A DNA stretch of 64,000 nt, from positions 62,001 to 126,000 of the forward strand of contig NZ_NUOT01000013.1 of assembly GCF_002584535.1 (NCBI RefSeq), given 5' to 3'. Under the pieces are notes generated by a model. It had not been told where the DNA came from and made no database searches. It saw only the letters and a list, made by a program, of their open reading frames with translations. This DNA is from Bacillus cereus (GTDB taxonomy: Bacteria > Bacillota > Bacilli > Bacillales > Bacillaceae_G). Numbering within the stretch: position 1 is the first letter of the stretch; each line of letters starts with the position of its first letter. Shown in pieces: positions 1-35,407 of this stretch. The translations under genes were made by a program, and so were the position numbers.

Positions 1-788
1 AGATATTCTTTATCTAAATGAAGCCTCTCAGTTATTAAAAAGATGGATAACGGTCTTATTAACCCTAAACCTAAGCCCGCAACCATAAAAACAAATCCTA
101 AAGTCCTTAATATTTGATGAACCCAAACATATTTGAAGCCAACTTTCATGTCCATCCAAACTGAGGATTCCTGGTCAGTTATGGAAATGTTTTGATCTTT
201 TGGTATGAACATCAATGTCATGGCAGACAATAAAAACATCATTCCCACTAATGCCATTGAAACATGGATACCAAACTGTTCAAATATAAATGTACCTAAA
301 ATCGGGCCGAATATCATGAAAGAAGATATTATAGTTTGAAATAATGACATTCCTTTCTGCATTTGTTCTTCACTCAAGTGCTTCTTAAACAACTTCATCG
401 ATAAAGGCTGTGAAAACTGAGATAGAGTCGCTGAAATGAAAGTAACAAAGAACACAACCTTCCAAGTAGTATAAATAAGGGTAATTAATATTAAAAACAC
501 TGATAATGCACTTAGAAGATCACACCATATCATCGTTCGCTTTGGTTTCCAACGATCTGCAAAGGCACCACCAATAAATGAGAATATAAATATCGGAAGG
601 AATTCTGCAACCGATATAAGTGACACGGCAAATGCATCTCCATCAGTCACTGACACAACAAATAATAAAATAGCAAAATTCCTAATCCAAATACCTATTT
701 GCATAAAACAACTAGCAATTAGAATGACCAGAATGAAACGATTTCTTAAAAGTGAAGTTGCAGACGAATTTGTTTTTTCTAATGGCAT
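1..788 (-). CDS. MFS drug-type efflux transporter (partial, runs off the left edge)
   Basis: The reading frame opens at ATG 788 behind a good AGAGGTG ribosome binding site and stays open to base 1, so the C-terminal part is missing. About 262 residues are visible, with hydrophobic helices throughout and the loop motif GGAFADRWKPKR after helix 2, which is the signature A loop of the major facilitator superfamily. The sequence resembles the DHA3/macrolide-efflux type. It is the last visible gene of the leftward biosynthetic operon, about 110 bases after the SbnI-like gene. The likely role is export of the peptide or its precursor, or self-resistance. The family call is secure; the substrate is inferred from context. 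Confidence 0.85.
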   Translation of the reverse strand, partial: MPLEKTNSSATSLLRNRFILVILIASCFMQIGIWIRNFAILLFVVSVTDGDAFAVSLISVAEFLPIFIFSFIGGAFADRWKPKRTMIWCDLLSALSVFLILITLIYTTWKVVFFVTFISATLSQFSQPLSMKLFKKHLSEEQMQKGMSLFQTIISSFMIFGPILGTFIFEQFGIHVSMALVGMMFLLSAMTLMFIPKDQNISITDQESSVWMDMKVGFKYVWVHQILRTLGFVFMVAGLGLGLIRPLSIFLITERLHLDKEY

Positions 789-868
789 AAGGCACCTCTT
801 AATTTTATTTACAAATTATTTGTTAACAACGAGTTAAGGTATAGTTCCCTCATATAGAACACAATCAT

Positions 869-893
869 CCGAATATTTATTTTTAATATTCGG
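869..893. other. Stem-loop between sbnI-like gene and MFS gene
   Basis: A perfect 9-base inverted repeat (CCGAATATT / AATATTCGG) lies in the gap between these genes. No run of T follows on the minus strand, so it looks more like an mRNA-stability or attenuation element than a full terminator. Confidence 0.4.
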
Positions 894-896
894 AAA

Positions 897-1652
897 TTAA
901 TTGATGCATACCACCGGAAATTCACACACCTGAAATCCGCACGTTTTTTCGTAAAAACATATCCACTCCGCTTCTTCTCCGTTTTCTAAGAGGGAAAGAG
1001 GCACTTCTAAGTTTAAAACTTTATAAGGAATTTTAAATCTCGACAAACCAGGTGGCATTAAGTTTCCTTTTAATGCATTATTTATAATCGTCTCTAAGCT
1101 TATGCCACTATATTGAACCCATGATTCATTTTGAGGCATTGTACTTTGGCGATAAAATCGATTAACTCCATAAGAATGGTATATATCTTGAATAGAGGCA
1201 AAGATATCGTTAATGTTTTGATTCTTCCCCCTCATAATCCCCTCAGAATCTTTACATTTATACTCGGCAATCGTTACACCAACGTTTAAATGAATAGTAT
1301 CAGATAATTGAGGTTTCCAGTTAGGATCACCAATTACATGATACCAATAATCTAAAACGATTGAATCCTGGCTTACAATTTGAATAGGTGCCCTTTTATA
1401 ACCTAATCCTTTTAGTGACGCTAATCTATGATGTCCATCCAGAACGATGAATTTATCATCATACTTGATACAAGGAATAGTATGTTTTACGAAGCCACTA
1501 TCTTTTATCCCCTCAGAAACTGTTTTGATTTTTTTTAAATCTACTTCTTCGTGTGGTATCAATTTATCAATATCAACTACAGCTAATTCGATCTTGTGAT
1601 TATTACATAGAAATGAGTGTACATATACAGATTCTCTCATTAAATTAACCAT
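897..1652 (-). CDS. sbnI: SbnI-like ParB/sulfiredoxin-fold L-serine kinase (O-phosphoserine supply)
   Basis: The protein has 251 residues, close to the 254 of staphylococcal SbnI. It carries a ParB-like fold with the motif LDGHHRLASLKGLGY near residues 71-85, the nucleotide-binding loop of this family. SbnI phosphorylates free L-serine to O-phospho-L-serine, the substrate of SbnA in 2,3-diaminopropionate synthesis; in Staphylococcus it is also a haem-responsive regulator. The cluster holds sbnA and sbnB homologues, so the set is complete. The start ATG has a near-perfect site (CAGGAGGAATAAT). A plain ParB-type DNA-binding role is possible, but the gene set argues for the kinase. Kinase activity is inferred from family and context. 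Confidence 0.75.
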   Translation of the reverse strand: MVNLMRESVYVHSFLCNNHKIELAVVDIDKLIPHEEVDLKKIKTVSEGIKDSGFVKHTIPCIKYDDKFIVLDGHHRLASLKGLGYKRAPIQIVSQDSIVLDYWYHVIGDPNWKPQLSDTIHLNVGVTIAEYKCKDSEGIMRGKNQNINDIFASIQDIYHSYGVNRFYRQSTMPQNESWVQYSGISLETIINNALKGNLMPPGLSRFKIPYKVLNLEVPLSLLENGEEAEWICFYEKTCGFQVCEFPVVCIN

Positions 1653-1712
1653 TATATTATTCCTCCTGTAATCAACATACTAATTTTTGACGTTACTTCA
1701 GAATGAAATAAC

Positions 1713-2420
1713 TTACTTAATTAACTCTTTCCAACAGATTTTTTTTGATATAAATGTATGTTTGATGCCTTCTGCATTTTTAACTGCTACTGATGCTACA
1801 TAGTCCTTCAGTGGCGAATAAGTAAAATAGTTAAAGTCTTCTGCAGTATTTTCATCTAATTGATACGGTACACGAAACGATAATGGTGACAGTGAAAATC
1901 CTAACCCTTTCGCTTTAACTAACGCCTCTTTTCTTGTCCACAAATGGAAAAACCTAATTAACTTCGTTTCATATGATGACCCTGCATTTATATACTTTAT
2001 TTCATCTGGTACGAACACTTGAGGCATAACCTCTAAAAAATCGTATGTAATGTTTTCTACATCTACTCCTATTTGATCCATATAACCAATTACGCATATA
2101 ACTAGTCCTTCAGTATGTGATAAGTTAAAATGTAACGATTCTTTTTCATTGTGCATACATTGTTTCTTTAAAAATAGTTTTCCATATTTATTTTTTATGA
2201 TTTCAACTTCACTTATAGGTATATCTAATTCTTTGCTAATTAATTGTTTAATTAGTAAACGGCCTATAATAAATTCTATTTTTTTGTGGTCAACTTTATA
2301 ATTTTTATATACTTTAAGTTCTTCATCACTTAATATTGATAAACTTTCTTCAAATTCTTCCAAAGACAAATTACTAGGTAAGTGAACTTCATAGATTAAA
2401 ATCTCTCTTCTCATTTTCAT
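1713..2420 (-). CDS. Sfp-type 4'-phosphopantetheinyl transferase
   Basis: This enzyme moves the phosphopantetheine arm of CoA onto the conserved serine of carrier domains and so turns apo-NRPS into the active holo form. The 235-residue protein has the Sfp-family motifs IGVDVE (about residue 117) and FHLWTRKEALVKAKG (about 158-172), which supply the Mg-binding acidic residues and catalytic lysine, and the size fits Sfp (224). It lies in the operon between the M28 peptidase and the SbnI-like gene. The start at ATG 2420 is preceded by AAGGTAG. It would serve the seven carrier domains of this cluster. The family is certain. Confidence 0.92.
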   Translation of the reverse strand: MKMRREILIYEVHLPSNLSLEEFEESLSILSDEELKVYKNYKVDHKKIEFIIGRLLIKQLISKELDIPISEVEIIKNKYGKLFLKKQCMHNEKESLHFNLSHTEGLVICVIGYMDQIGVDVENITYDFLEVMPQVFVPDEIKYINAGSSYETKLIRFFHLWTRKEALVKAKGLGFSLSPLSFRVPYQLDENTAEDFNYFTYSPLKDYVASVAVKNAEGIKHTFISKKICWKELIK

Positions 2421-2501
2421 TTACACTTCTACCTTTTTAATTATTTTAAGTTCATTTGATTATAACAACCTCTTTTAACATGATTCATATACCGTTGTAA
2501 T

Positions 2502-4784
2502 CTATTTCCAAGACCAACCTTCTAATGTATGTTCGAAATTAAACCCTCTTTCCTTATCCCAATTAATGTTATTCAGGTGAACAAATGTCATATAGCCAGG
2601 CCACGCTTGCATAATATTATCTTGTGTTATCTTAGGAGTAGTTATCATATGAGCAAAATTCATCCCTAAAATTCTAACATTTTTATTAACTGCTCCACTT
2701 TCGTATTTAGCTTCTAAATGAATATCTTTAGTATTCCATATACGTAATAAAATCTTATCTTCCAACAAACTTTTGGATAACTTCTCCTTGTCAATTAAAG
2801 TCTCATTTATAGTAATTGAGTCTAGTGCATCTCCATCTTCTATTAATAAAAACAGAGCATTATAATCATTGTTAGAAATAGTTAACTGCAATTTTGTTTG
2901 GCTAAGAGTTTTTCCATCCACTTTCAAATTTGATGACGAGAAGCTCTCTTTTATTGGTGAGAGTTTATACGTCTCCTCTACTCCAAAAAACATTGACTCT
3001 TTCACATTTCTACTGTTATTAAAGATCTTTTTTTGCCAATCATCTAATTCTGTCTGGTCAGTCATCCAATAGTTCCCACCATTAATATCTCTATATAGAT
3101 ACAATGAGCTAGGTCGAGGCTCTGCTGAACTAAACTCGGTGGTCAAAAGAACTTTAATCGACAAAATGATTAAGATGACTAAAGCTGATAGAGCTGAAAT
3201 TGAAATGGTACTCCTATTAGATCGGTTATTAACCAAAAGATAAGTCACAAAAAGCACGGGCATAATAAATATAAATACTGGAGCAATTTTAGGAACTGCA
3301 ATATAGATAACTCGGAATGTATACACAGTAAATAAAATTGGAATTAACGATATAGCTAAAAATATTAGACAACGTTTTATAGAACTAATTCCGGGAAGCA
3401 AATCTGAGATGAAGAATGGAACGGCGAAAAGAAAAATCGGCAGCACCAGTGTTGGAAATATGAAATGGCTCACTACTGAACTGATAAATAAAACGATTAA
3501 AACACCCACGGAAAATACAGGAGTTTTTTTATTTACTTTGAGAACATACAAAGCAATTAACACAATTAGTAAAGCAAACACACCCAAGCTTATTGAAAAT
3601 AAATCATTATTCAATGGAAGCAATCTCCAGGAATCAAATAAATACTGATTAAACCATTTAAAAACCTGTATGTACAATAAACCACTTCCAACTGTCAATC
3701 CAATCACAATAATTGGCATTAAAACATCTAACACTTTAATACTTTTATTTTTGTAGATAACAATTCCTAGAAATAGTAGTATTGATGCGATACATATTAA
3801 ATTTATCCATTTCCCATAAAAAATCACAAAACCAGGGAGCAATGTCCATGAAAGCTGATCGACATCTTCATTTAAAGTCATTTCTCTATCTTTGAGTAGA
3901 TTTATAAAGAGTTTTAAGTTTGAATACTGCATAAATGCTGTACTATGATCGATATTCTCAAATTCATCATTTATATTATGATAATTTCCAAACCCTTCAA
4001 TGAACGCTAAATTAAATCCTATCTGAATGTCATTTTTGAAAACTGTAAAATCTGAATTAAAAGGTAAGAGTTTATAAGCTTCACTAAAAAAGGATGAAGT
4101 AACCGCAAAGTCTGATTGATGAGCGTACTCTTTTACAATCCCTATTGATTGATTTGTGGTTTCAAAAAGAAAAGGTATTCCACTACTCCCTCTCCCTTCC
4201 AGGTTGATAACGCTTTGAATATTATATTCAGCAAAATGATTTTCATAAAACGCTTTTGCTCCTAGAAGACCAATTTCTTCTCCGTCAGTAAATAAAAATA
4301 AAATATTATTGTTAGGAGTTTTTTCTTTTGACTGTTCAATAGCAGTTTGTAGCATATTCGCAACTGCTATTCCATTATCTCCAGCTCCGTTTGAAGATGG
4401 GACAGAATCATAATGTCCGACAATTAAAATTGAATTATCTGTTTTCCCCTTAATCGTTGCAAGAATATTAGAAGGTGTTCCAGTGTCCAGTGGCGGACCG
4501 AACTCCGAATGCTCAACGAAGGAATTTAATTCTGCGACCTTTATACCTTCGTCTTTTAACGTTTTCTTAATAAATTTTCTTGTTTCTTCGTTTCCCTTAG
4601 TTCCTATTGGGCGGACAAATTGTGTCATCTTATCAAGATATTGAAGAGCAGCTTTTTTCTCATATTCAGGATTTACAGGGGCTTTTCCAATATCTTTGGT
4701 CAAATGAAATACAGATCCCCAAATTAATAAAAGAATTAAGATAAACAAAATACTCATTATGCTTTTGTTTTTAAGGCTTTCCAT
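2502..4784 (-). CDS. Polytopic membrane M28-family zinc aminopeptidase (ERMP1/Fxna-like)
   Basis: The 760-residue protein starts with a signal-anchor helix (about 8-27) and then an M28 peptidase domain. Visible zinc-site elements are VGHYDS (about 123-128), the GDNG segment and DGEEIGLLG (about 167-175). Roughly eight further membrane helices follow (about 315-545), then an extracytoplasmic domain of about 200 residues. This layout resembles the ERMP1/Fxna group rather than secreted aminopeptidases. It sits between NRPS-3 and the Sfp gene. In other clusters (colibactin ClbP, zwittermicin ZmaM) membrane peptidases of family S12 remove an N-terminal leader at export; an M28 enzyme could play that part here, or destroy the product as resistance. 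Both roles are inference. Confidence 0.82.
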   Translation of the reverse strand: MESLKNKSIMSILFILILLLIWGSVFHLTKDIGKAPVNPEYEKKAALQYLDKMTQFVRPIGTKGNEETRKFIKKTLKDEGIKVAELNSFVEHSEFGPPLDTGTPSNILATIKGKTDNSILIVGHYDSVPSSNGAGDNGIAVANMLQTAIEQSKEKTPNNNILFLFTDGEEIGLLGAKAFYENHFAEYNIQSVINLEGRGSSGIPFLFETTNQSIGIVKEYAHQSDFAVTSSFFSEAYKLLPFNSDFTVFKNDIQIGFNLAFIEGFGNYHNINDEFENIDHSTAFMQYSNLKLFINLLKDREMTLNEDVDQLSWTLLPGFVIFYGKWINLICIASILLFLGIVIYKNKSIKVLDVLMPIIVIGLTVGSGLLYIQVFKWFNQYLFDSWRLLPLNNDLFSISLGVFALLIVLIALYVLKVNKKTPVFSVGVLIVLFISSVVSHFIFPTLVLPIFLFAVPFFISDLLPGISSIKRCLIFLAISLIPILFTVYTFRVIYIAVPKIAPVFIFIMPVLFVTYLLVNNRSNRSTISISALSALVILIILSIKVLLTTEFSSAEPRPSSLYLYRDINGGNYWMTDQTELDDWQKKIFNNSRNVKESMFFGVEETYKLSPIKESFSSSNLKVDGKTLSQTKLQLTISNNDYNALFLLIEDGDALDSITINETLIDKEKLSKSLLEDKILLRIWNTKDIHLEAKYESGAVNKNVRILGMNFAHMITTPKITQDNIMQAWPGYMTFVHLNNINWDKERGFNFEHTLEGWSWK

Positions 4785-4857: not shown

Positions 4858-4887
4858 ATGAAGTAAAATTCGTAGAATCAAAGTATA

Positions 4888-7800
4888 TTAGACTAATAAA
4901 CTTTTTTTACTACTTTTAATAATATTTAATAATAGGTTGATATTGTCTTTCATGTAAGGTTCAAAGAACATATCAGAATGACTACCGAATCCCTGATTGA
5001 TATTTAGAGTATCTTTCCCTAAAATATCTTTCCACTGAGCTATTACCTTTTCTTTTTCAGCAGATTCATCATAACTATCTTGAGAAACCCAGTACACTTC
5101 CGAATAAATGCTTCTCATGTTTTGCTCATTGTAAAAATAATTTGCAAATGCAAGCCTTTTATTATATGCAACATCAATCATATTTGGATTATCATTTATC
5201 CAATTTGCTAGCTCTGAGACTTGATTTAGCCCATTATTTATGTCCTCATTTACTTCTTTTATAATTTCATCTTCACTTGTCTGATGTTGAATTTGTGTCC
5301 TTGAGTCGAACATAATAACTTTTCCATTTGATGAATATACCCTCTCTAAGTAGGCCGCTACTTCTAAAGCGAGATTTCCACCAGCAGAGTACCCCATAAG
5401 AATCCATTCTTTTTGATTACTCATGTTATAAATATATTCTGCATATTTTTCTATTCTGTCTTGATCTTCAATAAAATCAAATAAATGAAGATTACCTGAC
5501 TTCATATATTTTGGGATATCATTATAAATTAGACCCCAACCTGCAATCGGTGGAAAAGAAAATAGATTGTATTCATCAGTTATATTAAATGTAGTTACTG
5601 GTACAACATCACTATTATCCGTTTTCAAACTCTTTGCAATTCCCATGATTGTAGGTTCTAATACGATTTCTCTAAAGGTTAACAATCTACCTGTTTCACG
5701 CTCTAAGTTGGCTATTAAAGAAATAATTGTTAATGAATTAGCCCCTAACGAGAATACATTGTCACTTCTATAAATCATCATATTTTCCAGTTTTAAAATC
5801 TTCCTTACTAGTTGAGCTACTTTCTTTTCATTTTCAGTAACTAACTCTTCTTTGGAACTATTTATTGTGACCTCTTGTAACGAGTGTCTATCCACTTTAC
5901 CATTTGAATTTAAAGGTAATTTTTGCAGTACTTCCAAAAAGTCTGGAACCATATAATAAGGAAGCTTCTCGTTTAAAAAGCGTTGAATATCTCTTTTCAG
6001 CTCCAATGTATCAGCATGCTTAGACTGAACATACCCTACTAGTAACTGTTCATTATTAATACTTTGCACTTTTACAACCGCATCACTGACTAATGGATGT
6101 TCCGATAAGGTGTGCTCTATTTCCCCTAGTTCAATACGATACCCTCGAATTTTTATTTGATAATCCTTCCTACCGAAAAATTCAATTGTGCCATCTTCCC
6201 GCCATCTTCCAATGTCGCCAGTTTTGTATAGTACTCGATCATGTGAACTCTTAGAATACGGATTTTGAATAAAGCTTACCTCTGTTTTAGCTTGATCATT
6301 TATATATCCTTTTCCTACACAAATTCCTGCAACATATATCTCACCTTTTAGTCCTACAGGTCTTTTTTGTAATTCTTCATCTAGAATATACAGACTACTA
6401 TTTACAATTGGCTTACCAATTGGAACCGGATCTTCCTTAGGTGCTTCATACATAATGTGATGAGCAATATCATCAGATGCTTCGGTCGGACCATAGGCAT
6501 TGACTACTGGTATGGTATGATGCTCAAACCATTTTGTTAGTGTCGCTGTCTTTACTGGCTCCCCCGTTACCAATAAGAATCTTAGATCATTTAACTTCAA
6601 ATCAAATTCGTTTAAATAATCCGCAAGAATATTAAGATATGAAGGTACAACTTCCAAATGAGTGACTTTCTCGTTATTTAAAACATTTATAAAATATTTT
6701 AAGTTTTGCTGTTCTGACTTCTTAATTATTCTCGTTGTTCCCCCGGTGCAGAGTGCCATAAAAAATTGAAATACAGATATATCAAAACAATGTGAAGCAT
6801 TTTGTACCACTACAGAATCTTCGTTACATGACAATAGTTCAATTTTTGCCATGATGTGGTTTAACATTCCTAAGTGCTCAACCATTGCTCCTTTTGGTTT
6901 TCCAGTTGAGCCAGAGGTGAATATAACGTAAGCTAATTGCCTTGAATCAATATCCATATTAAAGCGCTCTTTCTCCAAGTCTTTAACAGGAATTTCATCT
7001 ACTTTTATAACATTGGCATTTATGTCTTTCACTTCAAGTGGGGTATCGTCATTACTAACCGTCAGAATAGTCCTGCAATTCGCTTGTTTTAAAATATCAT
7101 TCATTCGGTCAGATGGTATATCCAGCTCGATTGGAAGATATGCCAGTCCGGCACTCCAAGCTCCTAATATGGAGGCTACCATCCAAGGCGAACGGTCCAT
7201 CATAATTGCAACAATTGATTCTTTTGGCATATTAGCTTCCCTTAAGGAAATCGCGATTCTATTAGACATGTGATATAGCTTCTCGTAACTCCAAGTTTCA
7301 TCTTCAAAAACAATAGCTGGTTTAAGCGGATTTTTCTCCGCTTGTTGCATAACGATTTCCGGAACAGTATATTCTGGTAACTGTAAATGATGATCTGTAA
7401 ATTGTTCCAGCTGCCTTTCTTCTATAGCACTAGTTATTGACAAGTTTGATAAACTTTCTTGGCAGTTGTTCATCATAAAATTTAAAATTGTTTTGTAATG
7501 GTCAATCATTCTCGTGATTGTATTTTCTTTGAATAAATCTGTTGAATAGATGAATTTTAGTTGATAAAATTCATCATTTGGCATAACTACTAATTCTAAA
7601 TCCATCAAAGTAGTATTATCCCCGTTATCCATAATAGAATAGCCTTTAACTTTATCATCTAATCCTTGATTGTCGAAATCATTAAAACTAAAGAGAATAT
7701 CAAAAAGCGGATTACGGTTTAAGGCTCTATCTACATTTAATTCTTCCAAAATTAATTCATATGGAAAGTGTTGATGCTCGAGAACTTTTTCTATCTCCGA

Positions 7801-16131: not shown

Positions 16132-16141
16132 TATTTCGCAC

Positions 16142-25684: not shown

Positions 25685-26761
25685 TTAATCTTTAAAATAG
25701 TTATATTTGTTTCTTTTATATTTTTCTTTATCTTTAGCACCTTTGCTATAATTCAACTTCTCCTTACTTATTCTTCTGCCTTTTACCCATAGAAAATCTT
25801 GCTCATACGTTATTTTATGATAGTTATCCAAGCGTTTACGCAAAATGATCCCGTTCTCTACAGCTTGATTAACTGCACATCCTTTTTCGTTTTTATGCTG
25901 ACAATTGGAGTAGGTGCAATATTTTGCCCACTCCAATATTTCTGGAAATCCTGCTTTACTATCATTTTCTTCAAGTAAAACTCCAAACTCTCTCATTCCA
26001 GGTGTATCAAGCAAAATAGTCCCGTTATTAAATAAAATTAATTCTCTACGTGTAGTTGTATGGCGGCCTTTTGAGGTAGCTTCACTAACATGACCAACCT
26101 TCATCACTTCAGTTCCAATTAGAGTATTAATAATTGTGCTTTTTCCAACACCACTTGCCCCTACAAATCCTACTGTCTCACCAGGGATTAAATGTGGAAT
26201 TAACGACTGTATGCCGTTTACGCCTTCAAGGGCAGATACTGTTAAGACCTTACCATCAGGATGAATTCTACGAGTTATTTCTACATAAGAATCAGGATCA
26301 GTGACTAGATCCGCTTTAGATAAAACAATAATAAGTTCAATACGACATTTCTGAGCCTGAGTAATGTATCTTTCAAGTCGTCTCGGATTATATTCTTTAT
26401 TCATTGATGTCACTAAAAATAGCTTATCTAGATTTACGCCGATTACTTGCTCTTCATAAAGGCTTCCTGGCTTCTTACGATAAAAAATAGATTTCCTGTC
26501 TAAAATGAATTCTAAAATATATTCATCATTCTTTATGCTTCTAGCCCTTACCCAATCGCCAGGGACCGGTAGACTCGCTGCATTAGATGTTAATAGTTTC
26601 TGAGAGGTCCTACATCTCCTCAAACCTGATTGTGTGGCTATTAGTATATCTTTACTAGTAAAACAAGTAACTACTCTTGCGATTTCACATTGTGAACTTG
26701 TATGCTTGTTAAACTCGTTTTCCCAGTGAAGATTCAAACCATAACTTTTTAAGATATCCAT
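25685..26761 (-). CDS. rsgA: RsgA-family ribosome small-subunit GTPase inside the NRPS operon
   Basis: 358 residues from ATG 26761, which has TAGGAGG at good spacing; a TTG codon sits just before it. The order is an OB-fold part (PVPGDWV), then a circularly permuted GTPase with SKAD (G4) before GASGVGKST (G1) and DTPG (G3), then a zinc knuckle in the pattern Cys-x4-Cys-x-His-x5-Cys. These define RsgA/YjeQ/YloQ, which binds the 30S subunit near the decoding site and aids late maturation. Bacilli normally encode RsgA in the housekeeping prkC region, so this is probably an extra copy. It begins 10 bases after NRPS-1 and ends 66 bases before NRPS-2, so it is co-transcribed. Self-resistance to a ribosome-binding product is the best explanation (inference). 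Confidence 0.9.
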   Translation of the reverse strand: MDILKSYGLNLHWENEFNKHTSSQCEIARVVTCFTSKDILIATQSGLRRCRTSQKLLTSNAASLPVPGDWVRARSIKNDEYILEFILDRKSIFYRKKPGSLYEEQVIGVNLDKLFLVTSMNKEYNPRRLERYITQAQKCRIELIIVLSKADLVTDPDSYVEITRRIHPDGKVLTVSALEGVNGIQSLIPHLIPGETVGFVGASGVGKSTIINTLIGTEVMKVGHVSEATSKGRHTTTRRELILFNNGTILLDTPGMREFGVLLEENDSKAGFPEILEWAKYCTYSNCQHKNEKGCAVNQAVENGIILRKRLDNYHKITYEQDFLWVKGRRISKEKLNYSKGAKDKEKYKRNKYNYFKD

Positions 26762-26771
26762 CAATAACCTC

Positions 26772-29700
26772 CTACACCTTATTTCTTGCTCTTCTTTTGA
26801 TTTTCGGCATACTTAACTGTTCATTTTGACCAGAAAGCAATATCTTATCAATATTCTCTGCCATTTTTCTAATAGTAGTTAATGTATAAAATTCTTCCCA
26901 TGCAACCTTGATAGAAAATCGCTCTTCCATATTCATTTTAATTTTCATAGCGAGCAAAGAATGGCCACCTACTTCAAAAAATTCAGCAATACAACTTACC
27001 TTTTTTCGTCCTAAAATATCACACCAAATTTCTGAAATAATTCTTTCTGTTTCAGTAATAGGTGCCTCATACTTTACGTTTTCTTGGTGTATAACAAGCT
27101 TAGGAAGATTATTTTTATCTATTTTCCCATTTTTTGTTAGCACGAATTTTTCTACAATCACGAAATACGATGGAATCATATACTCAGGTAATAATCCCTT
27201 TAATGTATCCTTAGTAATAGATAGATCAAATCTATTTATTTCAAACGGTTTTATATAAGCCACAATTTGCTTTTGGCCAAATTCATCTTGAACTGTTGTA
27301 ATATATGAATCCTCTACAGTTATATCTTTATCAATCTTCTTTTTTATATCCGTTAACTCAACTCTAAAACCTCTGATTTTTTCTTGCATATCTTTTCTAC
27401 CACAATAAACAATTTCACCTTGTGTATTTCGATATGCTAAGTCACCCGAACGATATAACCGAGTTATATCCCCATTTTCTAATTTAATAGAGATAAATTT
27501 CCTTTGGGTCTCTTCCTCAAGATTCAGATATTCATTGGCAAGACCTTTACCTCCAATATACATCTCACCTACCACTCCAATAGGAAGATTATGAGTGCCA
27601 TCCTGACTTCGAATATCAATAACGGTATCAGAAATAGGAATTCCTATAGGTAAATCTTCTTCATATGATTCTACATCGTGAATTTTATGAAAAGTAGCAA
27701 ACGTAGTTGTTTCACTCGGCCCATATACATGAATAAATTGGCATCCTGGAAGATTCTTAGAGAACTTTTTAACACAATCTAAATTAACTTTTTCACCACC
27801 AAAAAGAATCTGTTTTACCCCCTTAAATGGGCTACTTTCTGCAGTAGAATATTGATTAAATAAAGATGTTGTAATAAATAACGTATCAACACCGTTATGG
27901 CTAATCTTTTCCTTTAATACATCCGGAGATAACAGATCTTCTTTTTCGATTAAAACGAGTTTAGCTCCATTAAGAAAAGCTCCCCAAATTTCAAACGTTG
28001 TAGCATCGAAACCTAAGTTGTTCATTTGAGCAATAACATTTTGGTTTGACAGCTTGCAATAATTAGGGTTTAATACTAACCTCAGAACACCATCATTAGG
28101 AATGCTGATCCCTTTTGGGTTTCCACTCGAACCAGAAGTAAAGACACAATATAACTCATCTTGATCATCCGCATAAACACTTTCGAATAACATATCTGTA
28201 GAATCTTCAATTCGACTTATATTTAAAGTTAAAATATCTGATGGAATACGTAACTCTTTTAAAACATTTGAACTTCCTTCATCAAATAGGATTACCTCCG
28301 GTGAAGTCTGATGGATAATCTCATTCACTCTTGTGAGAGGGGTTCCCTTATCTAATAAAATATAAGAATACCCTGAACGCGTGGCAGCTATTATGCTATA
28401 AATAGAATGAATCGCTTTATCACAACAAATAAGTGCACGGCGCCTTGTTTGTTGTGCAGGATGAGATAACAATACCTTTCCGATGGATGCACTTTTATAA
28501 TTAAGTTCTTTATAAGTCACAGAATGATTTTCTGTTACGATTGCAATTTGATCTGGAACCTTATTGAATTGTTTTTCTAAGTAGTAAGAAACTCCACCTT
28601 TATGATACAAATCACCCATTGGATTATCCGCATGTTCGTTTGTTCGATCAATCAGTTCTACATCTTTTGTTAATAATACTTTAAGCTCTGCTATTTGCTT
28701 ATCTGGCTGTGAGGTAGTAACATCAAGAATATTTTTATAAAAATTCAAAAAACTCTCCATAAACTCTTTCGTCATATGAGAAGCATTATATTGAATAACC
28801 CCATGTAATGAAGTATTAACTTTTTCAAATATACACGTTAGATCAGATTGCGCAAATTTCTTTAGAAGAGGGAATGAAGAAAATTTTATTTCTCCCATAT
28901 CTAATGTAATCCCTTCCACACCTGCAAAAAATAACGAGGCACCTTCAAAATCAGAAGTTCTTGCTTTTTCTAGTACAAACATAGTTTGATATAAAGGCTG
29001 GTTAGCGGAATTACCTTGATCATTGTACTTCTCTATCAATTCTTGATAAGATACCCTTTGATTTGAGAATATTTTTCTTACATCACGTTGTACCAAATTG
29101 GCATACTCAGCAAAAGATTGCGTGTCATTTACCAAGCAGTTTACAGGTAATGTATTCACATAATAACCAATCTTATCTAGATGTTTTTTTGAATGCCGTC
29201 CTAAAAAAGGAACTCCTGTAGCGATATTGTTATTATCAAAATAATAAGATAGCACTATATGGTAATTTGCTAATAAAAAACTAAAAGGAGTAACACCCAT
29301 CTTAAAGGACTCCGAATAAATTTTTTCAGTTAAATCTTTATCTAACTGCAAAACAATGGATTCAGCTGTTTCACTTTTCAACATATCCCTAGACTTTCCG
29401 AATGGCAGCTGAAGTTCCTCTACCCCTTTGTGTAATCTTTCTTTCCAATAATCTAATGACTTCTTATATTTATCTGTTGTTTTATACTCATCTAACATCT
29501 CAATATGATCAAAAAAAGAACAGTCATTTGCTACTAGAGAAAAATCTTCGTTATTCCTCATCTGTTTATAAATAGAAGCGATTTCTTTCAATATCACAAT
29601 AAGTGACCAATAATCGACAACGATGTGGTGTGTAATAAGCAATACATATTTATTATTATCATCAGTAGTAGCAACTATAAATCTAGAAAGTGGTCCATTC

Positions 29701-30020
29701 TTTAAATCAATCAATTTATTTGCTTCAATATTGAAAAAATCACGTACTTCCTGCTCGTTTATAAAAGTGTAGGTTTCAAAAGATACACGATTATTTTCGT
29801 TAACCGTTTGTAGTATTTCACCATTTTTCTCAATAAAACGAGCACATAAAATAGGATGTTTCACAGAAATTAAATCACTAACCTTTTGTAAATCGTATAC
29901 ATCTATATCACTTTCAACCTTTGCAGAAAAGTAAGTATTATATGCCGTTGATTGCGGATTGGCCGTTTGTATTTTCCATAATCCTTTTTGACCCTCTGAC
30001 AATTTATATTCTTTATTCAT
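26772..30020 (-). CDS. NRPS-1: single C-A-T module, probable first synthetase
   Basis: 1082 residues counted from ATG 30020, chosen because GGGTGGGA lies just upstream; an in-frame start at 30059 has no such site. Motifs: C domain with THHIVVDYWS (about 133; the glycine of HHxxxDG is tyrosine), A domain FTSGSSGNPKG (about 630) and NGKID, T domain FFEVGGHSL (about 1018). The pocket read by eye is DAFFLGVTF, similar to codes for branched aliphatic residues such as Ile or Val. If the operon is colinear this is the initiating protein, and the odd C domain could be a starter domain that takes an acyl-CoA or an upstream beta-amino acid. The last 20 residues are strongly basic. Module content is certain; the substrate is a prediction. 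Confidence 0.9.
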   Translation of the reverse strand: MNKEYKLSEGQKGLWKIQTANPQSTAYNTYFSAKVESDIDVYDLQKVSDLISVKHPILCARFIEKNGEILQTVNENNRVSFETYTFINEQEVRDFFNIEANKLIDLKNGPLSRFIVATTDDNNKYVLLITHHIVVDYWSLIVILKEIASIYKQMRNNEDFSLVANDCSFFDHIEMLDEYKTTDKYKKSLDYWKERLHKGVEELQLPFGKSRDMLKSETAESIVLQLDKDLTEKIYSESFKMGVTPFSFLLANYHIVLSYYFDNNNIATGVPFLGRHSKKHLDKIGYYVNTLPVNCLVNDTQSFAEYANLVQRDVRKIFSNQRVSYQELIEKYNDQGNSANQPLYQTMFVLEKARTSDFEGASLFFAGVEGITLDMGEIKFSSFPLLKKFAQSDLTCIFEKVNTSLHGVIQYNASHMTKEFMESFLNFYKNILDVTTSQPDKQIAELKVLLTKDVELIDRTNEHADNPMGDLYHKGGVSYYLEKQFNKVPDQIAIVTENHSVTYKELNYKSASIGKVLLSHPAQQTRRRALICCDKAIHSIYSIIAATRSGYSYILLDKGTPLTRVNEIIHQTSPEVILFDEGSSNVLKELRIPSDILTLNISRIEDSTDMLFESVYADDQDELYCVFTSGSSGNPKGISIPNDGVLRLVLNPNYCKLSNQNVIAQMNNLGFDATTFEIWGAFLNGAKLVLIEKEDLLSPDVLKEKISHNGVDTLFITTSLFNQYSTAESSPFKGVKQILFGGEKVNLDCVKKFSKNLPGCQFIHVYGPSETTTFATFHKIHDVESYEEDLPIGIPISDTVIDIRSQDGTHNLPIGVVGEMYIGGKGLANEYLNLEEETQRKFISIKLENGDITRLYRSGDLAYRNTQGEIVYCGRKDMQEKIRGFRVELTDIKKKIDKDITVEDSYITTVQDEFGQKQIVAYIKPFEINRFDLSITKDTLKGLLPEYMIPSYFVIVEKFVLTKNGKIDKNNLPKLVIHQENVKYEAPITETERIISEIWCDILGRKKVSCIAEFFEVGGHSLLAMKIKMNMEERFSIKVAWEEFYTLTTIRKMAENIDKILLSGQNEQLSMPKIKRRARNKV

Positions 30021-30079
30021 TTTTGATCCCACCCTAAGTATCAGTAGTTTAAGTAACAAAGTACTTTTTTATAAAATAG

Positions 30080-30154: not shown

Positions 30155-31132
30155 CTATATCAAACTGAGTTCTTTTTCAGAATGAGGATTCAATACTTTA
30201 TGACACCATTCCTCATTGTAAATCGTATCAAAATATCGATCTCCCCTATCTGCAAACAGCGTTACTACATTAGGCTTTTTCACATAGTTTTTATCTTTAA
30301 AATAATTTTTCACTGCACCGTATACAGCACCCGAAGAACCTCCAGCAAATATTGCATGTTTACTTAAGAGTTCTTTACACATTTCTATGCTCGTTTTTTC
30401 ACTGATTATCACAACATCATCAATGATTGAATCTTTTAGAATATCCGGTACAATACTTGAGCCTATCCCAGGGATGGATCTATTTTGAGGTTGCAAACCA
30501 AAAATAACAGAACCTTCCATATCTACCGCGATAACTTTTGATTTCGGGAACTTCTCTTTGACACAATTAGAAATGCCAGTAATTGTCCCCCCAGAACTTA
30601 CACCTAAAAAAATATAATCCACTTCAATTTCGTTACATATTTGCTTCCCTACGGTCTCGTAATATGCATTTGCAACTAATTTATTACCGTATTGATTAAT
30701 CCAATATGAATTTGCTATTGAATTTCTTAGCTCATTAACCTTCTCTAACCTTGTGATTAAATATCCACCTGAATTATCGGGTTCTGTTACTTTTATTACT
30801 GTTGCTCCTAGAGATCTAATGATCATTTCATTCACAGGTAAAATTTTCGGATCAACCACGCAAATAAATTTCAAACCTAGCCTTTTACAATAACTTGCTA
30901 AAGCGATACCAAAATTACCAGACGAAGATTCAATAATTGTTGTATCCTTGTCGATATCACCTTTCTGAAGCAAAGTTTCAAGAATGTGTGCAGCTGCTCT
31001 ATCTTTAACGCTACCAGTAGGGTTGTTTCCCTCTAATTTAACGAATAAATTCACATTACATAAGTCTTTACTTGTTAGTTGTACCATTGGCGTTTTTCCA
31101 ACAAAATCTAATACACTATTATAAATACTCAT
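30155..31132 (-). CDS. sbnA: SbnA-like PLP synthase of 2,3-diaminopropionate precursor
   Basis: 325 residues, almost exactly the size of staphylococcal SbnA (326). It belongs to the cysteine-synthase fold: PLP lysine in TGSVKDRAA (about residues 39-47), the substrate loop SSSGNFGIA (about 69-77), and the phosphate-binding SSGGTITG (about 179-186). SbnA joins O-phospho-L-serine and L-glutamate to form the amino-carboxyethyl glutamate intermediate (ACEGA) that SbnB oxidises to L-Dap. The start has GTGGGAGT upstream. The gene overlaps the end of the type II thioesterase gene by 14 bases, so translation is probably coupled. An ordinary cysteine synthase is unlikely given sbnI and sbnB in the same locus. 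Confidence 0.85.
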   Translation of the reverse strand: MSIYNSVLDFVGKTPMVQLTSKDLCNVNLFVKLEGNNPTGSVKDRAAAHILETLLQKGDIDKDTTIIESSSGNFGIALASYCKRLGLKFICVVDPKILPVNEMIIRSLGATVIKVTEPDNSGGYLITRLEKVNELRNSIANSYWINQYGNKLVANAYYETVGKQICNEIEVDYIFLGVSSGGTITGISNCVKEKFPKSKVIAVDMEGSVIFGLQPQNRSIPGIGSSIVPDILKDSIIDDVVIISEKTSIEMCKELLSKHAIFAGGSSGAVYGAVKNYFKDKNYVKKPNVVTLFADRGDRYFDTIYNEEWCHKVLNPHSEKELSLI

Positions 31133-31856
31133 AATTTACTCCCACTTGATTCTTGTTATTTTTTTCATAAATTAATGATTTGTTTATAATGTTATTAATA
31201 TATTCAACGTTATTGTTAATGAAAAAATGGTTACCATTTAATGTATAAACTATCGCTTCACGCTCGCTGTATTTATTCCATTCTAGAGCTTCCTCTAGTT
31301 TTACTGTATCTTCAGTTCCTATAAGAATGGAAATATCACATTCGATTTTATGCTGATTAGGATTATATTCGTATTCTCCTAGTATCTTTAAATCATTCCT
31401 TATTATCGGTAGAAACAAATCTGTTAATTCTTTACTATCAACCAACTCTTGTGGGATGCCTCCAAGAGCATTCAATTTACTTAGCAATTCCTGATCAGAA
31501 AAATGATGTAATTTTTCTTTATCTTTCATCCGATCCGGTGTTTTGCAACCAGAAAAAAATATATGTTCTGGTAATCTTTTGCCCTCAGAACGGATCTTAT
31601 GATATAGCTCGTAAGCTAATATACTTCCCATGCTATGTCCATATAATGCATACTGATTTTGGTCGATCTTATCCTGAATCATATTATAAATATCATCCGT
31701 TACTTCTTTCATACTCATATAGAAGCCCTCATTAAATCTTTGTCCCCTTCCTTTCAACGGAACAGGATGTAAATAAATAGATTTATCTAAATGATTCCTC
31801 CATTTGTAATACCCTACCTCCGAACCACCAGCGTAAGGTAGACAAAATAATAGCAT
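31119..31856 (-). CDS. Type II thioesterase (SrfA-D/GrsT family)
   Basis: A 245-residue alpha/beta hydrolase that opens with LFCLPYAGGS, the standard start of stand-alone NRPS editing thioesterases. The nucleophile elbow is YGHSMGS (about residues 72-78) and a late histidine lies in GNHFF (about 209). These enzymes free carrier domains from wrong or stalled acyl groups. GGGGGG precedes ATG 31856. The gene lies 80 bases after kamA and overlaps sbnA. It adds to, and does not replace, the terminal TE of NRPS-3. The family assignment is firm. Confidence 0.92.
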   Translation of the reverse strand: MLLFCLPYAGGSEVGYYKWRNHLDKSIYLHPVPLKGRGQRFNEGFYMSMKEVTDDIYNMIQDKIDQNQYALYGHSMGSILAYELYHKIRSEGKRLPEHIFFSGCKTPDRMKDKEKLHHFSDQELLSKLNALGGIPQELVDSKELTDLFLPIIRNDLKILGEYEYNPNQHKIECDISILIGTEDTVKLEEALEWNKYSEREAIVYTLNGNHFFINNNVEYINNIINKSLIYEKNNKNQVGVNYEYL

Positions 31857-31935: not shown

Positions 31936-33345
31936 TTACACTTTATTGAGTTCATGATTACTTGCCATTTTTTGAAGCTGGGATTGATACTTCTTTTCTT
32001 TTAATTTATCCCTTTTATCCCTATTATTCTTCAATGAAATATGACCAGGATTTTCTTCATACCCTTTTCTTCTACTATACCTCGACAAACCTTCTGGAAT
32101 TAAGCTAGACTGTTTATCTTGGAGTATCCCTGCAACCCCTATAGTTGAAGATTCATTTATATATTGTGGATAGATTTTCTTGAAATAGTCTAATGCCCTA
32201 TTAGCCTTATAGTCTTGCGGCTCAGGATACGATGTAATGACACCTTCAAAATTACGTAAAACCACTTTATCAGGACTTTGTGAAATGATATAGTTTGGCT
32301 GAATAGCAATTTTACCTCCTCCGCCCGGCGCATCTACCACAAATGTAGGTACTGCATAACCCGACGTATGCCCCCTGAGTCCTTCAATAATTTCAAGACC
32401 TTTCGATATAGGGGCTCTAAAATGACTAATGCCTTCTGATAAATCACACTGATATATGTAATAAGGGCGAACACGAATCTTTACTAGATCATGCATTAGC
32501 TTTTTCATTATTGTTACACTATCATTGATACCCGCTAATATCACTGACTGATTTCCTAATGGCACACCTGCATCAGCAAGCATTTCACACGCCTTTTTTG
32601 CTTCCTCTGTAATTTCAATTGATGTATTAAAGTGAGTATTCAGCCATATAGGATGATATTTCTTTAAGATATTACAAAGATTCTCTGTAATTCTTTGTGG
32701 AAAAACGACTGGAGCACGTGTCCCTATTCGAATAATCTCAACATGAGGGATCTCTCTTAAACTTTTCAGTATGTACTCCAATATAGTGTCATTAATTAAC
32801 AAACCATCTCCGCCGGAAATTAATACATCTCTAACCTCAGGCGTTTCTCTTATATACTCAATAGCTCTGTCTAACTGCTTTTTCGGAACCGCCATACCCA
32901 CTTGGCCAGAGAAACGTCGACGTGTGCAGTATCGGCAATACATTGAACACTGATTGGTAACTAAAAATAACACTCTATCTGGATATCGATGAGTTAAACC
33001 AGGAACTGGAGAATCTTCATCTTCCTCTAATGGATCCTCAAGATCGTACTTTGTTTTATATACTTCATTCGAAATCGGTACAGATTGCATCCGAATTGGA
33101 CAATGCGGATCGTCCGGATTCATCAGTGAAGCATAGTACGGAGTAATATTAAGCGGGATTGTTTTTGTAGATATTCTTATTCCCTCTTCTTCATCTGGTG
33201 TTAAATGAATTACTTTTTTTAAATCTTCTAAGGTACGGATTGTATTCGTAAGTTGCCAAACCCAATCATTCCATTGGTCTTCAGTAACATGTTTCCACAT
33301 TTCTATATCTCTCCAATGACGGGTTGGTTTGTATAATTGATCCAC
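31936..33345 (-). CDS. kamA: Lysine 2,3-aminomutase (radical SAM, PLP)
   Basis: 469 residues, similar in length to other bacterial KamA proteins. The radical SAM cluster is CSMYCRYC (about residues 132-139), followed by SGGDGLL, and a PLP-lysine region lies later (about 335-345, GGGGKIA). The reaction converts L-alpha-lysine to L-beta-lysine. The gene starts at GTG 33345 with GGGAG upstream. It is the first gene of the leftward operon and lies 80 bases before the type II thioesterase. In many bacteria kamA pairs with ablB to make the osmolyte N-acetyl-beta-lysine; no ablB is present next to it. It therefore probably supplies beta-lysine to the peptide, as in other beta-lysine antibiotics. Enzyme identity is firm; the role is inferred. 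Confidence 0.88.
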   Translation of the reverse strand: MDQLYKPTRHWRDIEMWKHVTEDQWNDWVWQLTNTIRTLEDLKKVIHLTPDEEEGIRISTKTIPLNITPYYASLMNPDDPHCPIRMQSVPISNEVYKTKYDLEDPLEEDEDSPVPGLTHRYPDRVLFLVTNQCSMYCRYCTRRRFSGQVGMAVPKKQLDRAIEYIRETPEVRDVLISGGDGLLINDTILEYILKSLREIPHVEIIRIGTRAPVVFPQRITENLCNILKKYHPIWLNTHFNTSIEITEEAKKACEMLADAGVPLGNQSVILAGINDSVTIMKKLMHDLVKIRVRPYYIYQCDLSEGISHFRAPISKGLEIIEGLRGHTSGYAVPTFVVDAPGGGGKIAIQPNYIISQSPDKVVLRNFEGVITSYPEPQDYKANRALDYFKKIYPQYINESSTIGVAGILQDKQSSLIPEGLSRYSRRKGYEENPGHISLKNNRDKRDKLKEKKYQSQLQKMASNHELNKV

Positions 33346-33860
33346 TTTTGAACAACTCCCTGAATTATTAGATGAATAGGTTATGATAGTAACTTTAATG
33401 CTTTTTAATCTAAAGTATTGTGCTTGTAAATATGATATAGCGATACTTCATATTCATTTAAAAAGGACGGTACATATTGATGATTCCCCACCATTATCCA
33501 ATTGATAATTTATGGCATTTTTTGTATTTAGCATCAGATTCACTACCTTCTTGCTGTTTAACTTTCTGTATCTAAAATATACGTGTCAATTTATGTTAAT
33601 AACAATCAGTAAAATTTCACAAAAAATCTGGCAATTCATTTCTTGTTTTCACTGCTTTATTTTACATATTTGCGATGAAGAGAAATCATGACAGTACTTC
33701 AGTTTATATTTAGGAATAATAGGAATGGCAAACTCCTACATAGTAAAAATTCTGTCATTGCTCATTTTATATATAAGAAAGACCTTTACATGTCTATGAT
33801 CCTATAAACTTAATATGCTGGGTGGCTACCAATTCTATTTCAAGTAAAATTTGTATAATA
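33346..33860. other. AT-rich spacer upstream of kamA, likely promoter region of the cluster
   Basis: No gene is seen. The region should contain the promoter of the leftward operon, but I cannot name convincing -35/-10 boxes. A perfect small dyad ATTATC-CAATT-GATAAT (33509-33525) is a possible operator; it is in the opposite order to a Fur box, so it does not support iron control. Confidence 0.3.
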
Positions 33861-33892
33861 AAAAAACAGGTAGAATCTACTTTCTACCTGTC
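33861..33892 (-). terminator. Terminator of decayed transposase
   Basis: On the minus strand the arms CAGGTAGAA / TTCTACCTG are followed by a run of seven T. It lies just beyond the transposase remnant and is probably part of the old insertion sequence. Confidence 0.7.
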
Positions 33893-34080
33893 AGACTGTC
33901 GACAAACCCCATTCAAATTAATAAAAAAATGTAAGTATCGCTTACATGAACAAATTTTTCAATCGCCGAAGGATTGTCCAACGCATACCATTTTTTATTC
34001 TCTTCCGTATGCCGAAGATGGCCCACTTCTTCAAGATAGCCTCCCCATAGATAGCGGTGAACCATCTTCGTTTAATTTTC
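33893..34080 (-). pseudogene. Decayed IS1182-type transposase C-terminus and element end
   Basis: Read leftward from about 34075, one frame gives a segment with YLEEVGHLRHTEENKKWYA. From about 33985 another frame gives MRWTILRRLKNLFM. Both match the C-terminal region of IS1182-family transposases as I know them (HLRHT-ENK-YA and HGMRWTTLRG-KK), but the part that should lie between them is gone, so there was an internal deletion. The element end is marked by GTCGACAGTCTG-type sequence near 33891-33905, typical of these elements in Bacillus. It lies between kamA and sbnB, exactly where the Dap genes are split. The family is recognised from memory; no alignment was possible. Confidence 0.6.
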
Positions 34081-34438
34081 CTAAAGCAGCTCTATCATTA
34101 GATTAAAATACAGCTAATCATTTTTAGAATATTTTTTTATATGCAAATATGATACAATAATTTACATAATTGTCAATCAACTCAGAAAACTACAACTTTA
34201 TATCTAAATACTACTTCTATAAACTTTCATTTGCATTCTTAATTATTGTTATTTTAAACAAATGGTTATTCTACTTTAAAATATCAATCTCAAAAACAAT
34301 AGCAATAAGTGTTTATAGATTAGGGATTTTTGAAAGGATGTGTTCTACTCTTTATATTCATTCTACTTTTTAAAACAAACGTTTTATTTTAAGCCTGAAA
34401 GTTTTAGACTAATACATTTTAACTAGGGGTGTAGAAAA

Positions 34439-35407
34439 TTGCTTTACTTAAATTCTAAAGATATTACTGATATTGGAATCAACTGGATAAAAACAGTTGA
34501 AATAATTAAAAAAGCTGTCAACGTTATGAATCATTCTGATTTCTCACAACCAATAAAGCCTTATCTACAATTTAATGATCCAGACAATCGGATTATAGCA
34601 ATGCCAGCGTTTGCTGGGGGAGAGTTTTCAGTAGCAGGTATTAAGTGGATCGCTAGCTTTCCTAAAAATCTTGAAGTTAGTATACCTAGAGCAAATTCAA
34701 TCACAATATTAAATGATGCGACTACTGGTGTACCATTCGCAACAATTAATACACCAATTGTGAGTGGTATACGAACTGCTTCTGTATCAGGTCTTATGAT
34801 TCAAGAGTTTGATAAAGTACATAATCTAAATGATGTAACACTCGGAATAATCGGGTTGGGCCCAATAGGTCAATTACATTTACAAATGGCAACAACCCTT
34901 TTAGGAGATAAAATTAAAAATATACGTCTTTTTGATATATCGGAAATCGATAAAAATAAAATCCCAGTAGAACTTAGAGAAAAAGTCACAATATGCTCGT
35001 CATGGGAAGATGTGTACCGTGATGCAGATATATTTATTACGTGTACTGTATCAAGTAAAGGATATATTGATGGTCCTCCAAAACCAAATGCACTGCTACT
35101 AAACGTATCACTACGTGATTTTAAAACTGATATACTAGACTATTCACCAGTAATTGTAGTTGACAATTGGGAAGAGGTATGTCGTGCAAATACAGATATA
35201 GAAGTCATGCATAATGAAAGAAATTTACAAAAATCAGACACTCTTGATATTAAAGATATTGTTTGTAGTAATGCATTTAAAGAGATTACAGAAGATAAAG
35301 TTGTCATGTTCCATCCAATGGGAATGGCTACTTTTGATATCGTAATTGCTCAATATTACTATGATCAAGCCATTGCTTTAGGCTATGGTCAACCGCTAGA
35401 AGCATAG
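34439..35407 (+). CDS. sbnB: SbnB-like NAD-dependent dehydrogenase making L-2,3-diaminopropionate
   Basis: 322 residues of the ornithine cyclodeaminase/mu-crystallin fold. It has KWIASFP (about residues 71-77), the Rossmann loop GIIGLGPIGQLH (about 138-149) and the late segment VMFHPMGMA (about 293-301). SbnB oxidatively cleaves the ACEGA intermediate made by SbnA into L-Dap and 2-oxoglutarate. The gene begins with TTG 34439 behind AGGGGTG. It is transcribed away from the NRPS operon, unlike in Staphylococcus where sbnA and sbnB are adjacent. An unrelated ornithine cyclodeaminase is possible on fold alone, but sbnA and sbnI nearby make SbnB the better call. A strong terminator follows. Confidence 0.83.
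   Translation: MLYLNSKDITDIGINWIKTVEIIKKAVNVMNHSDFSQPIKPYLQFNDPDNRIIAMPAFAGGEFSVAGIKWIASFPKNLEVSIPRANSITILNDATTGVPFATINTPIVSGIRTASVSGLMIQEFDKVHNLNDVTLGIIGLGPIGQLHLQMATTLLGDKIKNIRLFDISEIDKNKIPVELREKVTICSSWEDVYRDADIFITCTVSSKGYIDGPPKPNALLLNVSLRDFKTDILDYSPVIVVDNWEEVCRANTDIEVMHNERNLQKSDTLDIKDIVCSNAFKEITEDKVVMFHPMGMATFDIVIAQYYYDQAIALGYGQPLEA

Follow-up and report, generated by a model that had tools for sequence, protein, structure and literature searches.

The window analysed here, a stretch of 64,000 nucleotides from Bacillus cereus (contig NZ_NUOT01000013.1, positions 62,001 to 126,000), carries a nonribosomal peptide synthetase (NRPS) cluster that, judged by its sequence, is apparently an intact orphan. 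We propose that a chromosomal NRPS operon makes a cationic depsipeptide of seven units that serves as an antibiotic directed at the 30S ribosomal subunit, with an RsgA paralogue encoded inside the operon helping the ribosomes of the producer; to this explanation as a whole we give a probability of about one half. The domain order, the relatives of the diaminopropionate (Dap) enzymes, an intact lysine 2,3-aminomutase, an FkbH domain in place of an adenylation (A) domain and a serine-type thioesterase (TE) can be read from the DNA itself. The machinery is of known type, and the combination of genes was not met elsewhere in the papers and genomes compared; nor was the whole cluster found in print in the best-ranked part of the literature matches. 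It is possible that the product is already known, the comparison having covered papers and genomes, with MIBiG outside it.

An assembly line of seven modules

In the order of transcription on the minus strand, the genes are kamA, type II TE, sbnA, NRPS-A, the rsgA paralogue, NRPS-B, NRPS-C, an M28 peptidase, Sfp, an SbnI/SerK-like protein and a major facilitator superfamily (MFS) protein, and sbnB is divergent from this NRPS operon (Table 1). The gaps between the minus-strand genes run from -14 to 108 bases, which fits a single operon. The open reading frames lie where a preliminary description of this DNA had placed them, and its count of seven modules with six A domains, one A-less FkbH module and a terminal TE is borne out by Pfam and by the core motifs: together, the three NRPSs hold seven condensation (C), six A and seven thiolation (T) stretches, one TE and one FkbH domain, and the core motifs agree with the Pfam domain calls. 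The T domain of module 7 (LGANS) was read from the translation, as the motif search did not match it. With C-A-T modules, intact core motifs and a release domain, these are modular NRPSs. Two C domains depart from the HHxxxDG motif (HHIVVDY in module 1 and SHLIADG in module 4), and pairwise identity among the seven C domains is only 19 to 28%.

The accessory set of the same description (Dap genes, kamA, type II TE, Sfp, exporter, peptidase and RsgA) was recovered through domain and model matches. It had also reported that a polyketide synthase (PKS) module is absent, and a search of the NRPSs at E 1e-5 gave neither a ketosynthase nor an acyltransferase, the sole PKS-named match being an acyl carrier protein model on a T domain. 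Neither an epimerization domain nor a dual condensation/epimerization motif was found in the NRPSs, and all-L residues are therefore expected. A hydropathy scan gives the M28 peptidase eight hydrophobic segments, with the peptidase domain between the first and the second. One structural feature counts against the cluster as we draw it: the MFS gene leaves the window at its left edge, so the cluster may continue beyond.

An FkbH-glyoxalase module and a predicted ester

Module 6 has the order C, FkbH, glyoxalase-fold domain, T, and its FkbH domain is assigned at 294 bits against a cut-off of 147. The H-E-H-E pattern of the glyoxalase domain presumably supplies its ligands. In the sections of PMC8949500 that concern FkbH, such domains in NRPS modules draw the glyceryl group that they load from 1,3-bisphosphoglycerate, and for vioprolide the link is made by a C domain that forms esters; the first two modules for corramycin are the same as those for vioprolide, according to a passage in PMC10099666. 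Because a glyceryl group has no amine, an ester is expected at module 6, as in vioprolide. By analogy, then, module 6 should form an ester, which would make the product probably a cationic depsipeptide. The preliminary description was right that FkbH replaces the A domain, and it overlooked both the glyoxalase domain and the ester linkage that an amine-free glyceryl group would entail.

How unusual is this module? Conserved FkbH patterns searched across 84,980 species gave 500 candidates, of which 360 were confirmed as relatives; the best 80 of these, all at 44% or less, were kept as reference loci. A C domain stands directly before FkbH in 41 of their 86 FkbH domains (38 of 80 loci), and a glyoxalase domain stands directly after FkbH in six of the 80 loci. 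These counts make C-FkbH an established kind of module and the glyoxalase domain a minority variant. A search for close FkbH-glyoxalase relatives, with low-degeneracy patterns and one genome for each of the 84,980 species, returned 21 candidate stretches and confirmed none. Among genomes nearer to the window, FkbH matches were few: one in 193 genomes of the family of G086, where 159 had some match and the other matches listed were short and to the glyoxalase part; none in 19 genomes of the family of G600; and three in 397 genomes of the order of G143 at E 1e-60. Around two of those three (G723 being left out) and around the one family match, in Niallia (G476), there was no match to SbnA, SbnB, the SbnI-like protein, KamA, RsgA or the M28 peptidase, and only FkbH, the type II TE and Sfp were matched. 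The Niallia cluster, a PKS-NRPS hybrid, was rejected as a relative. Separately, a Magnetococcales contig has a relative of KamA (41%; locus L039, positions 155-1222) close to a C-FkbH NRPS.

Probable diaminopropionate at positions 3 and 7

In staphyloferrin B biosynthesis, O-phosphoserine is made by SbnI and used by SbnA. The kinase activity of SbnI is mentioned in a passage of PMC9641203. All three Sbn proteins have relatives in the window: the SbnA-like protein passes its NCBIfam cut-off (395.5 against 350 bits), the SbnB-like protein scores 321.1 bits, about 6 below its cut-off of 326.9, and the SbnI/SerK-like protein, at 79.5 bits, falls far under the NF033589 cut-off of 350, has no match in Pfam, and matches the structures of SbnI and of a free serine kinase.

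Nine of the ten code positions of each A domain were taken from alignments, under what we take to be GrsA numbering. The code of module 1, DAFFLGVTF, is presumably that of an aliphatic residue. Modules 3 (DIWEVTADD) and 7 (DIFELTADD) share the form D-I-W/F-E-x-T-A-D-D, and the solved A domain nearest module 7, 9n1u, has the code DVWEMNADD, read by eye. For the remaining modules we turned to a 2025 survey, PMC12283262, as far as its relevant sections go. There, DLTKVGHVGK is tied to Asp and Asn, and DLTKIGEVGK is also compatible with cyano-Ala in the section on Asp and Asn, close to the code of module 2 (DLTKVGEVG); DPRHLALLAK stands for aminoadipate and DPRHVSLLAK for Asn, beside DPRHFGFQG in module 4. 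The apparent Arg set of the survey has Glu239 with Val or Ile330 and Thr331, and module 5 (DAEGTSTIT) has D235, A236, E239, I330 and T331 in common with it.

The preliminary description had proposed a diamino acid at modules 3 and 7, and gene context in three loci now backs Dap there. SbnB relatives at E 1e-40 occur in three of the 397 genomes of the order, which are a sample from a larger group. That of G798 is only 30% identical, with no other cluster match within its 20 kb stretch, and those of G276 and G532 adjoin SbnA (66% and 54% identity). The A domains read in these two loci include DIWEITADD and DIWELTADD (two of six in G276) and DIWELTVDD (the only one in G532), so that the pattern D.[WFY]E..[AV]DD fits 5 of 13 A domains in the three SbnA+SbnB loci (two of six in the window). 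The control was drawn from 42 of the 80 FkbH loci, those 42 being without an SbnA or SbnB match; 95 of their A domains were aligned, 92 gave complete codes, and none of the 92 fits the pattern. Certain features of this test weigh against our assignment: the pattern was set after the window codes had been seen, the control loci span at most about 22 kb, so that remoter Dap genes would escape, and the A domains of G276 and G532 were reached via their Dap genes. Since the pattern adjoins SbnA and SbnB in two other loci and is absent from the 92 controls, Dap at positions 3 and 7 is nonetheless well supported by the codes and their context, and a Dap code with this kind of backing aids the reading of other clusters. 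One further compact Dap pathway is seen in G532 (C2, about 116-124 kb; L135, L136), where SbnA and SbnB stand with a 702-residue protein holding a Dap-type A domain and with one ABC transporter gene or more.

Could the product be a siderophore? Staphyloferrin B is the best-known setting of the Dap genes, and relatives of SbnA, SbnB and SbnI are all in the cluster; the cluster proteins that were scanned showed no siderophore synthetase, iron-uptake gene or catechol or hydroxamate enzyme, and we know of no siderophore role for RsgA, KamA or the M28 peptidase. We regard a siderophore as improbable. A second alternative, that the TE closes a terminal Dap to a beta-lactam, as in sulfazecin, draws on the Dap-type last module and on the proposal, in part of PMC11298585, that a Flavobacterium cluster having FkbH and a Dap at its end forms a beta-lactam. 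In the same part of that paper, SulM-like beta-lactam formers are recognised by a Gln-Cys-Asn TE motif, and a sulfotransferase gene is considered. The TE of the window has the serine motif GYSAG, the catalytic cysteine is missing, and the scan of the cluster proteins showed no sulfotransferase. On the TE motif the cluster was rejected as a SulM-like beta-lactam former, and this alternative is very improbable indeed.

Lysine 2,3-aminomutase and a possible beta-lysine supply

Scored as AblA, KamA reaches 647 bits against a cut-off of 525 with its motifs intact, which identifies it as a lysine 2,3-aminomutase. On sequence grounds, a supply of beta-lysine by KamA is plausible, a recent recruitment or a chance placement of the gene being conceivable too, and none of the A domains of the window could be assigned to beta-lysine from its code. 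Is KamA, then, an ordinary chromosomal gene that stands first in the operon by chance, leaving a product without beta-lysine? We hold this to be a real possibility, a little short of an even one. Speaking for it, and against our proposal, KamA is 79 to 83% identical to full-length copies in four related genomes (G600, G545, G735 and G647, with 87% over a partial stretch in G647), and no beta-lysine-type A domain was recognised in the cluster. Elsewhere the resemblance falls to 36% (the best in G824), and G476 has no match. On the other side, kamA shares its strand with the type II TE gene, 79 bases away, and two KamA copies are present at other places in each of G600 and G545.

An RsgA paralogue inside the operon

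The protein encoded between NRPS-A and NRPS-B has the permuted GTPase motifs, including the Walker A sequence GASGVGKST, and the zinc finger of an RsgA GTPase. It is 35 to 39% identical to the best-matching RsgA in five of six genomes and 31% in the sixth, which speaks against its being just the native copy of the lineage. Excerpts of two papers (PMC6449344, PMC12445079) describe raised sensitivity to ribosome-targeting drugs in B. subtilis without CpgA, and part of a third (PMC10295648) names an E. coli rsgA mutant as one of four with a 2- or 4-fold lower gentamicin minimal inhibitory concentration. In the portion available of a study of protein-synthesis inhibitors (PMC9290621), rsgA is listed as duplicated, but outside the berninamycin cluster.

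RsgA-mediated self-protection is a reasoned guess that rests on co-location, and it may be correct. The sharper claim, that a new cationic glyceryl-depsipeptide hits the 30S subunit and that the RsgA paralogue is a dedicated self-resistance or immunity GTPase, strikes us as rather unlikely, and RsgA as an immunity factor is not described in the best-ranked part of the literature matches. Plasmids offer some parallels: in seven neighbourhoods, out of 182 records with RsgA matches, rsgA adjoins NRPS genes in two, both from Streptomyces and of one cluster type (NBC_00162 and NBC_01546), stands in a run with MFS and oxygenase genes and no NRPS in two, and has no such run in three; none of the stretches fetched has an SbnA, SbnB or KamA match. 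Two counts tell against a protective role, namely that five of the seven plasmid contexts lack an NRPS gene near rsgA and that five of the six genomes have two RsgA matches, paralogues being common. Two of these arrangements are worth recording in detail. In two Streptomyces strains (L115, L117, L118), the genes beside rsgA encode NRPSs, a 2-oxoglutarate-Fe (2OG-Fe) dioxygenase and a prolyl oligopeptidase; in L139 and L140, rsgA belongs to a conserved run that also encodes a cupin protein, MFS exporters and a 2OG-Fe oxygenase, perhaps a small natural-product operon.

Might the RsgA copy instead be a metabolite-repair phosphatase for the FkbH step, one that could prevent FkbH misloading, and not a protector of ribosomes? 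In B. subtilis, CpgA dephosphorylates 4-phosphoerythronate, a side product of an enzyme that also makes 1,3-bisphosphoglycerate, the FkbH donor. We take 2ykr to be E. coli RsgA and 1t9h to be B. subtilis CpgA, and the RsgA of the window matches the former (124.6 bits) better than the latter (94.2 bits). The phosphatase activity of CpgA depends on the Walker A lysine (a passage of PMC6449344), and that motif is present in the window protein; part of PMC12445079 reports that CpgA orthologs from three other Firmicutes have the same function, whereas E. coli RsgA cannot stand in for CpgA as a phosphatase. Furthermore, an RsgA match lies near FkbH in none of the 80 FkbH loci. We consider a repair role quite unlikely. 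If RsgA copies do mark ribosome-directed peptides, they would be a handle for genome mining, and the copy in the window a possible sign of a small-subunit target.

Proposed product and pathway

In the pathway that we propose, the SbnI-like protein would phosphorylate serine, and SbnA and SbnB would convert the O-phosphoserine to Dap. Assembly would follow gene order, as aliphatic - Asn/Asp - Dap - X4 - basic X5 - glyceryl - Dap, which upholds the order of the preliminary description (aliphatic - Asn/Asp - diamino acid - two open positions - glyceryl - diamino acid) together with its polar, cationic character. The first C domain probably accepts an acyl or other external starter; FkbH would load the glyceryl group from 1,3-bisphosphoglycerate, and the C domain of module 6 would esterify it. 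The TE may then release or cyclise the chain, the MFS protein would export the product, and the outward-facing M28 peptidase may trim or inactivate it. Such a product would most likely be an antibiotic against the small ribosomal subunit, and the RsgA paralogue would aid the ribosomes of the producer. The cluster is compact and intact-looking, with most units predictable, and two points are directly testable: the mid-chain glyceryl ester from the C-FkbH-glyoxalase module and the RsgA copy.

Chromosomal setting and feature positions

The flank shows synteny with G600 from a nuclease gene and the hem genes as far as prsA. HemY has a match in 258 of 299 genomes of the class, at 67% in the best case, and the hem genes reach at most 72% DNA identity among 278 scored of 397 Bacillales genomes, none of the genomes compared being named B. 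cereus. Flank synteny and gene matches together place the window on a Bacillales chromosome. In the 39 kb around the hem genes of G600, none of eleven cluster queries matched, and the window DNA had no match among plasmids. Rfam gave nothing in the window at gathering scores. Promoter-like sites in the region number 21, against 20.0 expected by chance, and terminator-like sites four, against 1.8 (standard deviation 1.4) in shuffles; one terminator-like hairpin (33865-33892, minus strand) lies between the promoter-like site and kamA, possibly for attenuation. Farther along, at 50045-51941 and 53357-55235, are two tandem pairs of similarly sized open reading frames (478/158 and 472/158 residues); by eye, the smaller proteins of the two pairs resemble each other, apparently through a duplication.

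Table 1. Positions in the window of the NRPS cluster genes, selected domains and an upstream site
Feature	Position	Strand	Evidence
kamA, lysine 2,3-aminomutase, first operon gene	31936..33345	-	TIGR03820 647 bits; aligns to 2a5h, residues 13-425; CSMYCRYC, CDLS, VDAPGGGGK
Type II thioesterase	31119..31856	-	PF00975 128 bits; GHSMG motif
sbnA-like, first Dap enzyme	30155..31132	-	TIGR03945 395.5 bits; best PDB match SbnA 5d84
NRPS-A, module 1 C-A-T, code DAFFLGVTF, C motif HHIVVDY	26772..30059	-	Pfam, motifs, alignment
RsgA/YjeQ-type GTPase paralogue within NRPS operon	25685..26764	-	TIGR00157 152 bits (cut-off 100); G motifs and Zn motif
NRPS-B, modules 2-4 (C-A-T)x3, codes DLTKVGEVG, DIWEVTADD, DPRHFGFQG	16142..25618	-	Pfam, motifs, alignment
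NRPS-C, modules 5-7: C-A-T, C-FkbH-glyoxalase-T, C-A-T-TE; codes DAEGTSTIT, DIFELTADD	4888..16149	-	
FkbH domain, module 6, in place of A domain	9991..10941	-	TIGR01686 294 bits; HAD motif DCDNTLW
Glyoxalase/VOC domain after FkbH, H-E-H-E ligand pattern by eye	9475..9864	-	PF13669 36.6 bits; aligned to 2qh0
Terminal thioesterase, serine type GYSAG, ends approximate	4930..5592	-	PF00975 31.5 bits and motif
Membrane M28 peptidase	2502..4784	-	PF04389 122 bits; motifs GHYDS / GAGDN / FTDGEE
Sfp-type phosphopantetheinyl transferase	1713..2420	-	PF01648, PF22624
SbnI/SerK-like, candidate free-serine kinase feeding SbnA	897..1652	-	NF033589 79.5 bits; PDB SbnI 5ujd E 2e-17
MFS exporter, cut by window edge	3..788	-	PF07690 80 bits
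sbnB-like, second Dap enzyme, divergent	34439..35407	+	TIGR03944 321.1 bits (cut-off 326.9)
Promoter-like site upstream of kamA, 11/12 matches	34149..34176	-	

Comparison with known systems

A cousin cluster of the Dap/Asn kind lies in G276 (C14, about 233.6-266 kb; L131-L133). Its genes on one strand encode serine hydroxymethyltransferase, three NRPSs (1797, 3201 and 1494 residues), an alpha/beta hydrolase, Sfp and a type II TE. Also encoded there are a fusion of an S12 beta-lactamase-like domain to an ABC transporter, a C-A-T protein of 1087 residues, and relatives of SbnA, SbnB and SbnI. Like the window, it has Asn-type and two Dap-type modules with near-identical codes and a separate C-A-T protein whose code is of the aliphatic type, and identities to the window are 66% for SbnA, 47% for SbnB, 32% for the SbnI-like protein, 33% for Sfp and 46% for the type II TE. 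Unlike the window, it has the S12 fusion and the serine hydroxymethyltransferase gene, its C-A-T protein is only 28% identical, and the 80 kb fetched hold no FkbH, KamA, RsgA or M28 match. In other NRPS systems, peptidases of this S12 type release the active compound from a prodrug. In the saframycin system, a membrane-bound peptidase, SfmE, removes an acyl chain (a passage of PMC11285072). Given these two precedents, the membrane M28 peptidase of the window may, by analogy, have a prodrug-type role.

Several known peptide systems share single features with the cluster. The main text of the edeine paper, as far as it was available, describes a Dap peptide of Brevibacillus whose EdeB has an SbnI-like domain, and it does not mention RsgA; the comparison was confined to these points, FkbH and KamA not having been looked for and the modules lying outside it. 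The Flavobacterium Leaf82 cluster, from the part of its description consulted, resembles the window in its seven modules, its FkbH domain and its terminal Dap; in contrast, sulfazecin SulM and Leaf82 have a SulTE-type TE that needs a Cys motif where the window has serine, and their other residues differ. The Streptomyces plasmid clusters of NBC_00162 and NBC_01546 also place rsgA beside NRPS and peptidase genes; their RsgA is 39% identical to that of the window over 257 residues, and in NBC_01546 an adjacent PKS-like part holds a weak FkbH match (28%), some 19.5 kb away from rsgA.

For module 6 itself, the nearest parallels are of two kinds. Six loci from Paenibacillus and clostridia (L005, L007, L008, L010, L015 and L025) have the same kind of domain after FkbH, 23 to 30% identical to that of the window; they differ from it in having a ketosynthase match in every case and no Dap-gene, KamA or RsgA match. 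In vioprolide and corramycin biosynthesis, FkbH is module 2 and follows a fatty-acyl ligase, whereas in the window it lies in module 6 of seven and is followed by a glyoxalase-fold domain; in all of them, FkbH replaces the A domain in a C-FkbH-T module.

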